Assembly (NCBI GenBank): GCA_038043445.1
Contig: JBBTBY010000008.1
Coordinates: 1 to 54,501 of the forward strand
Direction of reading: 5' to 3'
Source of the DNA: Spirochaetota bacterium
GTDB taxonomy: Bacteria > Spirochaetota > Brachyspiria > Brachyspirales > JACRPF01
DNA length: 54,501 bases
Position numbers and translations under genes: made by a program. The notes beneath the pieces were generated by a model. The model was not told the origin of the DNA, did not search any database, and saw only the letters and a list, made by a program, of their open reading frames with translations. Below are positions 5,125 through 40,552 of this stretch, one piece after another; positions within the stretch are counted from its first letter, which is position 1; the number at the start of each line of letters is the position of its first letter.

Positions 5125-7227
5125 TCATACCTTTATCACGCCGGCGAGCGCACTCGTGAACGCATGTTCCGAACAATCGCGCCGCATGCGCATGAGCATC
5201 GCCCGCTGCATCCTGTTCCACGATCTTTCATCGGTATAGAGATCATGAACGGCGCGTGCGAACATCTCGGGGGTATCGCCCACCATCACCTCATAGCCGT
5301 TGCGCCAGCCGACCTGTTCTGCGATGAGCGGTGTGACCACGGAGGGGATGCCGAACGATGACGCGTGATGGAGCTTGTACGGTATGCCGCCGGCGAAACG
5401 CGTGGGCACCACGAAAACACGATGCGACGCGAACAGTGTGCCGAGGTCGGGCACGTATCCGGTGACGATAAGCCCTTCACGCGCGAGGGAGACAACCTCA
5501 TCCGTAACATTGCCCGCAATGGTCACGGTCGCACCGAGGGACTGCCGTATCACCGGGAATATCTCCCTGATGAACCACGTGAGCGCATCGTAATTGGGGC
5601 TGTGCGGGGCCGTCGACAATATGCTTCCGGCGAAGAGTATGCCCTGCCGCGCACGGAACGATGACGACGGCTTCACGGCAAGCGCATGCCCGAGCGTCGT
5701 CACCGATGCGACGCCCGCCTCGGAGAATATCCTTCCCTCGGCATCCGATACCGCGGTGACCATATCGGCTTTTTTTGCGAGCGCTAATTCCTTCGCAACG
5801 GCAATTTCGCGCTCACGCAGAGGCATCGCCCTCCCCGTGACCTCGCGGAATCGCGCATCGCGGAACGCGAATATCGCCTCCGCATCATAGATGATCCTCG
5901 AGCGCGGTGAAAGGCGTCGGCAGGCATCGCCGTATGCCGCCATATTGCCGGGGCGTGCGATGAAAATGATGTCGTAATAGGCGTTACGCGCTTTCAGTAT
6001 GCGCTTCACATCGGCGTACTCATCGTGGAACACCTCCACGCCGCGGCGCGCAAGATCGGCAGCGATGTCCGCACGGGAACGCATGCGTGTCGGGCACACG
6101 CTCACAAAGCAGCCGAGCGAAACAAGTCTCGTGACGATATCGTACGACCGCGGCATGCCCGAACCGACAGCGGGGTCGGGTATCCTGTCCTCGATGAAGA
6201 GCACACGCGGGCGCTTGTCGGGAACTGACCGATACGGGAAAAGATCGCGTTCCCCCGCGGGGCATCGCACTGCAAGCTCCTTCTCCCAGCGCGCAAGGAA
6301 TTTCCTGCGATTTACCGCCTGACGCGCGAGCGCATCCGCCGCCGGCATGCTCTGGAATTCATGATGCACGGCATTGGCGAACGGCGTATACACGACGCGC
6401 AACCCCGCTTTGCGCACGCGCATGCAGTAATCACTTTCTTCATAGTATGCGGGGGCATAGAGCTCATCGAAACCCTTGAGTTGTGCAAACAGCACGCGCG
6501 GTGTGCAGAACAGCGCACCGCTCACATAGTCGACATCGCGCATGAAGGAATACTCGGGCTTGAACGGATGGTCCATACGCCCGTAGCCGCCGGCAGTGCC
6601 GTCGGTTCGGAGCACGCTCCCTGCTTCCTGAAGCCGTCCGTCGGGGAACAGCAATCGCCCGCCGACCACGCCGATGTCCTCACTTCGCATCACATCGATG
6701 AGCGCGCGGCAGGTACCCGGCAGGAGCTCGGCGTCATTGTTCATGAACAGGATGTAGTCGCCCTTCGCGCGGCGGGATGCATTGCTGCAATTGCGGAGGA
6801 AGCCGACGTTCTTTTCCGCGCGGAGAATTATCGCATTGACCGTGCACTGTTCGATCTGTGCCGTCCCGTCGGGCGATGCGTCATCGGCGATGATCACCTC
6901 ACAGGGAATATCCGTGACCGTACGCGCTATCGATATGAGCGCTCGGCGTGTATGATGCCACTGATCATACACCGGAACGATGATGGAAAGTACGGGCTTT
7001 TTCGAGTCGGGGAGCGTGATGACACCGCTGCCGCTGCGTTCGCGTTCCCAGAACGCCGTCTCGAAATAGTACGGACTCTCCTTCGGCACCTTCCGTCTGC
7101 GCACGGCGAGAATGCGTATCGGGGAGATCATCCCTGAGAACAGCCGCACTATCTCCTTCACCCGTTCCCTTCGTGCCGAGCCCGGTGGAAGGAGTGTAGT
7201 GATCATCCTCGATATTACGCCGCGCAT
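5125..7227 (-). CDS. Two-domain glycosyltransferase, GT2 + GT4-like, 700 aa
   Basis: The N-terminal half (about residues 60-290) is a GT2 (GT-A) domain: SIIVPVYDQW, IIADDASPDG, NNDAELLPG as the metal/sugar-nucleotide site, GFDELYAPAYYEESDYC as the acceptor side. The C-terminal half (about 345-695) is a GT-B domain of GT4 type, with YDAEAIFAFRDAR, AGNVTDEV, VTGYVPDL and VVPTRFAGGIPYKLHHA. Such proteins add two sugars in sequence in polysaccharide or glycoprotein glycan synthesis. The frame extends back to a TTG at 7245; I place the start at the ATG at 7227, and 7206 is an alternative. No strong ribosome site is seen. The gene closes the surface-glycan cluster and is coupled to prsW. Confidence 0.85.
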   Translation of the reverse strand: MRGVISRMITTLLPPGSARRERVKEIVRLFSGMISPIRILAVRRRKVPKESPYYFETAFWERERSGSGVITLPDSKKPVLSIIVPVYDQWHHTRRALISIARTVTDIPCEVIIADDASPDGTAQIEQCTVNAIILRAEKNVGFLRNCSNASRRAKGDYILFMNNDAELLPGTCRALIDVMRSEDIGVVGGRLLFPDGRLQEAGSVLRTDGTAGGYGRMDHPFKPEYSFMRDVDYVSGALFCTPRVLFAQLKGFDELYAPAYYEESDYCMRVRKAGLRVVYTPFANAVHHEFQSMPAADALARQAVNRRKFLARWEKELAVRCPAGERDLFPYRSVPDKRPRVLFIEDRIPDPAVGSGMPRSYDIVTRLVSLGCFVSVCPTRMRSRADIAADLARRGVEVFHDEYADVKRILKARNAYYDIIFIARPGNMAAYGDACRRLSPRSRIIYDAEAIFAFRDARFREVTGRAMPLREREIAVAKELALAKKADMVTAVSDAEGRIFSEAGVASVTTLGHALAVKPSSSFRARQGILFAGSILSTAPHSPNYDALTWFIREIFPVIRQSLGATVTIAGNVTDEVVSLAREGLIVTGYVPDLGTLFASHRVFVVPTRFAGGIPYKLHHASSFGIPSVVTPLIAEQVGWRNGYEVMVGDTPEMFARAVHDLYTDERSWNRMQRAMLMRMRRDCSEHAFTSALAGVIKV

Positions 7228-39269: not shown

Positions 39270-39333
39270 TGACTATTTTATACTACATGATAAATCGGTC
39301 TTGACTATTTTATACTTGATGATAAATTAGTCA
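39270..39333. promoter_or_regulatory. Two tandem 32-bp near-palindromic repeats (candidate operator)
   Basis: Copies at 39270-39301 and 39302-39333 are directly adjacent and match at 27 of 32 positions. The second is a near-palindrome: TGACTATTTTAT at the left, ATAAATTAGTCA at the right. The first keeps the left arm but its right arm is changed (ATAAATCGGTCT). TTGACT and TATACT within could serve as promoter boxes. They lie 23 bases before the AAA ATPase gene, so they are probably its own control site. The spacing and count do not suit a CRISPR. Confidence 0.6.
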
Positions 39334-39355
39334 TATTAGAAAATAGGAAAATGCC

Positions 39356-40552
39356 ATGCATAGATACGTTCACGATGCGATCGCACATGATATTACCCGG
39401 AAAATGGTATTGCTTTCCGGGCCGCGGCAATGCGGGAAAACGACGCTTGCGCGCCATATCATGGAACAGTATCCGAAGAGTATCTATCTTAACTGGGACA
39501 GCGCCCCTGACAGACGCATCGTACAGAAAGGTGCTATCGATGAGTCATCACCGCTCATCGTCCTTGATGAGATACATAAATTCCGCAACTGGAAGAATAT
39601 GCTGAAAGGGCTTTATGATACGCGCCGTGATGCGCAGCATTTCCTCGTTACCGGCAGTGCGCGCCTCGATGTGTATCGCCGCGGGGGTGATTCACTTCTT
39701 GGACGATATCATCACTGGCGCCTGCACCCTATTACCGCCGACGAACCTGTCGAGGGTATGAGCGTTAAGGATGTCATAAGCCGCCTCCTTGTTACCGGCG
39801 GATTTCCGGAGCCGTTCCTCGGGAATGATGAACGCGAGGCGAGGCGCTGGCGCACCGAACGCTGGGACCGGGTGATAAAGGAAGACATTCGCGATCTGGA
39901 AGCGGTGCGCGAGCTCGGATCGCTTACCATGCTCCTTGATCTGCTCAAATCGCGTGTAGGAAGCCCGGTCGTGATGAGCAATCTTGCCGAGGACCTGCAG
40001 GTTACATCGAGAACGGTGCTGCACTGGATCGAAATACTTGAACGCATGTACGTCATATTCAGGGTATTCCCGCTTACGGCAAAAGTCGTGCGGGCGATAC
40101 AAAAGCCGCCGAAGATATTCTTCTACGACATTGCGGATGTTGACGAGGATATGGGCATGCGGGCGGAAAATCTTATTGCCGCGGCGCTTCTCAAACGCTG
40201 CCATTTCCTTTCCGACCGCGACGGATACCGATACGAACTGCGCTATATACGCGATAAAGAGAAGCGGGAGGTTGATCTTGTCGTTCTCAGGAACGGTGTT
40301 CTCCTTGATGCCGTAGAGGTAAAAGTGAATGATGATGCGGTGAGCAAACCGCTTATCCATTTCCGGAAGCATTTGAATATACCGAACACGTGGCAATTGT
40401 CACTTGCCGATCGGTCCCCGGCAGTCTTGTCCGGCATCATGCGAGAATCGTTCTCGCATTGCCTTTCACGGACCGTGATCACCGACATCGACGAGAATTG
40501 TGCCAGTGTCATCACGGGGAAAGCAAAGGACGTGTCTTCGAAGCGCGAATAA
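39356..40552 (+). CDS. AAA_14 ATPase with DUF4143 (PD-(D/E)XK-like) C-terminus, 398 aa
   Basis: Walker A is SGPRQCGKTT (about residues 21-30), Walker B LIVLDEIHKF, sensor LVTGSARLDVYRRGGDSL. A helix-turn-helix-like part (NLAEDLQVTSRTVLHWIEIL) and the DUF4143 end with EVDLVVLRNGV and LDAVEVKV, the D-x(n)-ExK pattern of the restriction-endonuclease fold. AGGAAA precedes the ATG at 39356. The family is widespread, patchy, and of unclear function. It lies between sugar genes, is lower in GC around its promoter and has its own repeat, so it is probably an acquired, independent unit. Confidence 0.88.
   Translation: MHRYVHDAIAHDITRKMVLLSGPRQCGKTTLARHIMEQYPKSIYLNWDSAPDRRIVQKGAIDESSPLIVLDEIHKFRNWKNMLKGLYDTRRDAQHFLVTGSARLDVYRRGGDSLLGRYHHWRLHPITADEPVEGMSVKDVISRLLVTGGFPEPFLGNDEREARRWRTERWDRVIKEDIRDLEAVRELGSLTMLLDLLKSRVGSPVVMSNLAEDLQVTSRTVLHWIEILERMYVIFRVFPLTAKVVRAIQKPPKIFFYDIADVDEDMGMRAENLIAAALLKRCHFLSDRDGYRYELRYIRDKEKREVDLVVLRNGVLLDAVEVKVNDDAVSKPLIHFRKHLNIPNTWQLSLADRSPAVLSGIMRESFSHCLSRTVITDIDENCASVITGKAKDVSSKRE

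Follow-up and report, generated by a model that had tools for sequence, protein, structure and literature searches.

Results

A 64-bp block of four half-sites precedes an AAA_14-DUF4143 gene

The window, by which we mean the whole 54,501-nucleotide stretch analyzed here, carries two directly adjacent 32-bp repeats on the plus strand, copy 1 at 39270..39301 and copy 2 at 39302..39333. The two copies, which the first-pass annotation had described, are present as it placed them: they are identical at 27 of 32 positions, are absent from shuffles (0 matches to the repeat pattern are expected in the dinucleotide-shuffled window), and end 22 bp before an AAA_14-DUF4143 gene. When the 5.1-Mb genome was searched with the 27 specified bases, allowing up to 3 mismatches, the two copies were the sole matches. 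A wider regulon was considered and rejected, as this whole-genome search returned no further site. Each copy comprises two 16-bp half-sites in opposite orientation: TGACTATTTTATACTA (39270-39285, plus strand) and AGACCGATTTATCATG (39286-39301, read on the minus strand) in copy 1, and TGACTATTTTATACTT (39302-39317, plus strand) and TGACTAATTTATCATC (39318-39333, read on the minus strand) in copy 2. Counted directly, 12 of 16 positions pair in copy 2, which makes it an imperfect palindrome and its earlier description as nearly perfect too strong; copy 1 is weaker, with 9 of 16. The 64-bp block of four alternating half-sites scores 69, compared with a shuffle 99% quantile of 47.5, and it is this four-half-site block, not a single 32-bp palindrome, that is the significant unit. 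A TG-extended sigma-70 promoter, predicted solely by consensus match (39301..39328, plus strand), consists of TTGACT at 39301-39306, a 16-nt spacer, and TAAATT at 39323-39328, and spans the copy junction and copy 2. Taken with the family comparisons below, the block very probably serves as the switch by which the gene controls itself.

The gene itself (39356..40552, plus strand) is intact, starts with ATG, and encodes a 398-amino-acid protein that corresponds to the PADLOC candidate PDC-S01. Both Pfam domains exceed their cut-offs (AAA_14, 90 bits against 27; DUF4143, 81 bits against 28), and the PDC-S01 models match residues 15-337, most of the protein's length, with an E value of 8.6e-51; the protein is therefore a member of the AAA_14-DUF4143/PDC-S01 family. 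Its AAA+ ATPase domain spans residues 15-130 (39398..39745, plus strand), with Walker A at residues 22-29 and Walker B at D71 and E72. An AlphaFold2 model with a mean pLDDT of 91.4 places a helix-turn-helix (HTH) internally at residues 187-230 (39914..40045, plus strand; recognition helix 218-230), in agreement with the internal HTH that had been claimed at the outset, and covariation also points to this region. The restriction-endonuclease-like domain lies at 40151..40465 (plus strand) and contains E271, D307, E321, and K323; in the model, strands 305-312 and 315-323 carry D307 and the E321/K323 pair, respectively. Across 52 homologues, E271, D307, and E321 are invariant and K323 is at least 90% conserved, which bears out the ExK pattern read from the window alone. 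The domain thus has the conserved E, D, and ExK residues of a PD-(D/E)XK nuclease on the expected strands. It is from these conserved residues only that nuclease action on DNA is suggested.

The layout of the probable operator recurs across the family

As the first-pass annotation had proposed, we looked for similar repeats upstream of homologues, and they were found. We gathered 168 distinct homologues from genomes of the phylum and, across many phyla, from named genomes; the detailed study covers the closer branches within Bacteria. Start codons were assigned by rule, as the ATG nearest the expected distance from Walker A, with none picked by hand, and the region from -120 to +10 was scanned. 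Inverted repeats with a score of at least 10 occur in 62% of the 168 genes, versus 3% of dinucleotide shuffles and 6% of the 210 promoters taken from these loci as controls (Mann-Whitney p = 6e-35). Direct repeats reach the same score in 87 genes, and in 64 of the 87 they are spaced at exactly 32 bp; among closer homologues (profile score of at least 350 bits), this spacing is found in 58 of 62. No peak at 32 bp is seen in control promoters or shuffles. Of 109 closer homologues, 75% score above the 99% shuffle quantile for the four-half-site arrangement; about 25% have no clear four-half-site block, which counts against reading the repeats as an operator. Distant members have mostly single palindromes and no 32-bp period.

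The layouts themselves vary. Several distant homologues (loci L020, L021, L023, L033, L177, and others) have, in place of the 32-bp tandem, a single palindrome of 31-37 bp, often near-perfect and sometimes overlapping the start codon, and the operator upstream of another homologue (L014) runs to about 2.5 repeats (TCCAGAATAGTCTTGACTAAATTGAAGAAGAC) with the 32-bp period, indicating that the number of half-sites can grow. The genome from which the window comes has three further DUF4143 genes, of which two, on contigs C39 and C98, show clear palindromes of quite different sequence in their promoters. At one locus of this genome (L001, G000:C98:5549-9022), two convergent DUF4143 genes have 3' ends about 80 bp apart, and one of them has a short palindrome pair, TACTCAACATCTTGAGTA / TACTCAGCACATTGAGTA, just before its start.

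Half-site letters covary with residues of the downstream protein

The half-site consensus across 77 genes is TGACTATTTTnnAnTA. Columns 4, 11, 12, and 14 are gene-specific, with identities of 0.60-0.83 within a gene and 0.26-0.40 between genes, the pattern expected of dedicated, non-cross-reacting operators. Masking the tested columns left phase and orientation unchanged in 77 of 77 half-sites. We then compared operator columns with about 350 protein columns, correcting first for overall protein identity and using permutation maxima as the threshold; the sample carries phylogenetic structure, and its effective size is about 58. Operator columns 11-14 are coupled most strongly to T220, R219, and D213, all within the HTH and above the permutation 99% maximum. 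Columns 1-5 are coupled to K301 (40256..40258, plus strand), which sits in a hairpin, flanked by two strands of the nuclease-like domain, and whose alignment column covaries with operator base 4; lesser coupling to L196 and to V245 and R246 in the loop after the wing falls below the permutation 95% maximum. The columns of R219 and T220 (40010..40015, plus strand) covary with bases 12 and 13. Scanning 353 protein columns puts 301 at the top for base 4 and 219 at the top for base 12, with 220 third for base 13, after two nearly invariant columns.

These couplings can be expressed as residue-base rules. Lysine or arginine at 301 accompanies C4 in 46 of 47 cases, and other residues do so in 0 of 30. 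At 219, asparagine or histidine is found with C12 (13/15), and glutamate (8/8), lysine (15/21), and arginine (8/10) are found with G12; at 220, threonine goes with A13 (45/55) and alanine with C13 (8/9). Even between proteins less than 38% identical, base 12 is equal in 62% of pairs if residue 219 is equal and in 29% if it is not. When changes were mapped on the tree by parsimony, the 301 class switched 7 times, each time on a branch that also carries a base-4 change (0.6 expected, p = 0.0005); coincident changes number 9 versus 4.1 expected for 219 and base 12 (p = 0.005) and 5 versus 2.2 expected for 220 and base 13 (p = 0.04), and nine control residues tested by parsimony against base 12 are at chance and not significant. 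The window gene obeys the rules at K301-C4 and T220-A13 and is an exception at R219, for which G12 is predicted and the consensus half-site has T. Three other loci (L252, L253, and L064) combine alanine at position 219 with C at base 12 (TCA), so A219 may pair with C rather than A/T, a possible extra rule outside the original set. The operator is thus dedicated to its own promoter and matched to the DNA-reading residues of the protein, as would be expected of an autoregulator.

The rules were fixed in writing before being applied to new genes. In nine new genes with a clear operator, a small test, they were right in 7/9 (219), 8/9 (220), and 8/9 (301). This held-out set included a Rhabdochlamydia plasmid gene, the upstream sequence of which had been seen earlier but was unused. 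The rules predict poorly where the operator is weak or unclear, as expected if the half-site of such genes is misread or absent.

The probable operator and its gene form a solitary unit

Close homologues lie in unrelated surroundings, where DNA similarity begins in the operator (-40 to -66) and stops at or near the stop codon. Neither downstream of the gene nor further upstream is there a half-site beyond chance (0.357 versus 0.370 in shuffles), so the same site does not stand at both ends as it would in a transposon. Around 14 cassettes, we found no recurrent partner gene or neighbor family and hence no fixed partner of the kind that defines a type II toxin-antitoxin system. From the limits of DNA similarity, the lack of a downstream half-site, and the lack of a shared partner, we conclude that the unit is a solitary operator plus gene.

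Within one genus, a family member sits at a different place in each of three species, and one of these copies is damaged. This degenerate cassette (L223, 3259-4305 in G117:C67) has an internal deletion of about 120 bp, and its right flank is the same as that of the intact copy in G178. An empty site was sought in this genus (G178, G117, and G219) and rejected: all three species share the point at which the left flank stops, but the sequence beyond differs, leaving no clean empty site. The window cassette lies between two sugar genes, and an exact empty site there was likewise rejected; G001, the only family relative, has no match to the window protein and has a BNR homologue at 54%, but its ADH homologues are too distant for judging synteny. 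Elsewhere, a stretch of some 170 bp that lies downstream of a cassette (L213, about 5190-5357 in G057:C53) has more than 10 dispersed copies in that genome (73-97%) and is an interspersed repeat.

A defence or selfish role had also been suggested for the gene, and the neighborhoods do not bear this out. PADLOC matches show no excess among 145 neighbor proteins of the 14 cassettes relative to 148 control-stretch proteins from the same contigs, a small sample; no mobility machinery was found; and PDC-S01 is itself only a computational candidate. Homologues are present on 331 of 72,556 plasmid records and are rare in phages (5 of 50,697 records, plus 31 viral contigs, all distant). On one plasmid (Candidatus Bandiella, NZ_CP104165.1; L254, 1950-2972), the DUF4143 gene is annotated as two pieces and sits between two AbrB/PIN toxin-antitoxin pairs, near an integrase.

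Discussion

It is very probable that the protein uses its HTH and its nuclease-like domain to bind and regulate its own promoter, given the family-wide layout, the covariation in both domains, and the held-out prediction; the same three lines of evidence strongly support the autoregulation proposed in the first-pass annotation. A contribution of the nuclease-like domain to operator reading, which our data suggest, was not foreseen there. In the account that we favor, and which we regard as very likely correct, the 64-bp block is a dedicated operator that is bound by the downstream protein and represses its own promoter until a release signal arrives. The AAA_14-DUF4143 protein would bind as at least two dimers on the four alternating 16-bp half-sites, with dimers sitting on both 32-bp palindromes. 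The inner bases 11-14 of each half-site would be read by the HTH recognition helix, and the outer bases (around 4) by the nuclease-like domain near residue 301, across an A/T tract. Because the operator overlaps the -35 and -10 elements, binding would be expected to repress the gene's own promoter, and some signal acting on the ATPase could then free it. Operator and gene together would make up a solitary self-regulating cassette in unrelated genomic places. Direct binding, its stoichiometry, repression rather than activation, the release signal, and any action of the released nuclease on DNA are all inferred from comparisons of this kind. A 6.6-fold rise reported for TT_P0211, a DUF4143 gene of Thermus thermophilus HB27, in the presence of a plasmid (PMC4406477) is consistent with releasable repression; the Thermus plasmid homologue that we examined is distant (31% identity) and has no clear operator.

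Since a nuclease-like domain with an intact active site appears to be part of the sequence reader, the operator could also be a parking place, at which the enzyme rests with its site uncut until an ATP-dependent signal releases or fires it, making the repressor the effector nuclease. Possible targets would be its own promoter, sibling cassettes, or invading DNA. We offer this extension tentatively and consider it rather unlikely.

Other explanations of the repeats would place the block under the control of another protein or give it another function altogether. Single palindromes before genes are ordinary operators, and the repeats could be bound by some other host regulator rather than by the product of the downstream gene. 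However, promoter palindromes differ between paralogues of one genome, the layout with its varying letters tracks the gene across phyla, and the half-site letters follow residues of the downstream protein itself, so we judge a separate regulator very unlikely. Even so slight a chance is a little more than we would allow the idea that the repeats mark one end of a transposon-like element, cut by the nuclease to move the cassette. The intact catalytic residues, the apparent contact of the nuclease domain with the operator, and the conservation of operator plus gene in unrelated contexts would all suit such an element, but the lack of any half-site beyond chance downstream or further upstream leaves it no second end, and neither a target-site duplication nor a multi-copy, near-identical element was seen.

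It is more improbable again that operator and gene are a relic, or a living example, of a minimal replicon, in which an initiator protein acts on an iteron-like origin. The AAA+ fold is nearest RuvB, RFC, and ORC (ORC4 is also matched weakly by sequence), the tandem sites adjoin the gene for their binder, and homologues occur on the 331 plasmid records. Against a replicon, most cassettes sit on chromosomes, a single genome often has several whose operators differ, the site and the promoter overlap, and no replication partner genes recur. Action of the inverted repeats in RNA, as an attenuator or hairpin, is almost certainly wrong: the repeats are able to fold as RNA, but neither an exact 32-bp direct period nor protein-DNA covariation would be expected of a hairpin, and a predicted promoter inside the block would leave most of it untranscribed. 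Binding of the operator by the product of its own gene remains our preferred reading.

If correct, this reading gives many PDC-S01 genes a readable DNA target together with named residues that seem to set it, and suggests that PDC-S01 proteins are sequence-specific DNA binders that control themselves. Binding, the release signal, and nuclease action become directly testable, and the residue-base rules could help in building orthogonal repressors for use in laboratory strains. Our results also advise caution, in that neighborhood alone is insufficient for calling PDC-S01 genes defence genes.

PDC-S01 is a PADLOC single-gene candidate defence family in which an ATPase is fused to a PD-(D/E)XK domain; it is unvalidated, was ranked the fourth most common prokaryotic defence, and occurred 39,480 times in one survey (PMC12988326). 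It is also abundant in rumen genomes (PMC13356809). The window protein is like PDC-S01 in that the models match over most of its length, and in the open literature that we searched, no paper was found to describe an operator, DNA target, or self-regulation of PDC-S01. The best structural matches of the model are the AAA+/winged-helix DNA binders RuvB, ORC/Cdc6, and RFC (Foldseek E values from 3.5e-6 downwards), although TM-scores to the window protein are only about 0.3 and none of the listed matches has the AAA+, HTH, nuclease order end to end. A PDB sequence search likewise gave P-loop or remote matches only, with no full-length relative. Among transcription regulators, IniR is a mycobacterial AAA+ ATPase (PMC5760070). 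It is like the proposed window protein in combining an ATPase domain with a DNA-binding domain that acts on a promoter, and unlike it in having other domains, regulating another operon, and lacking a nuclease-like domain. Autoregulated antitoxins and plasmid Rep proteins are self-repressing regulators with tandem palindromic operators, and the window shares with them inverted repeats over the promoter of the presumed binder's gene. Unlike in those systems, the presumed binder is an AAA+ ATPase that has no partner gene and whose nuclease-like active site is intact, and its operator site is built of four 16-bp half-sites with a fixed 32-bp period.
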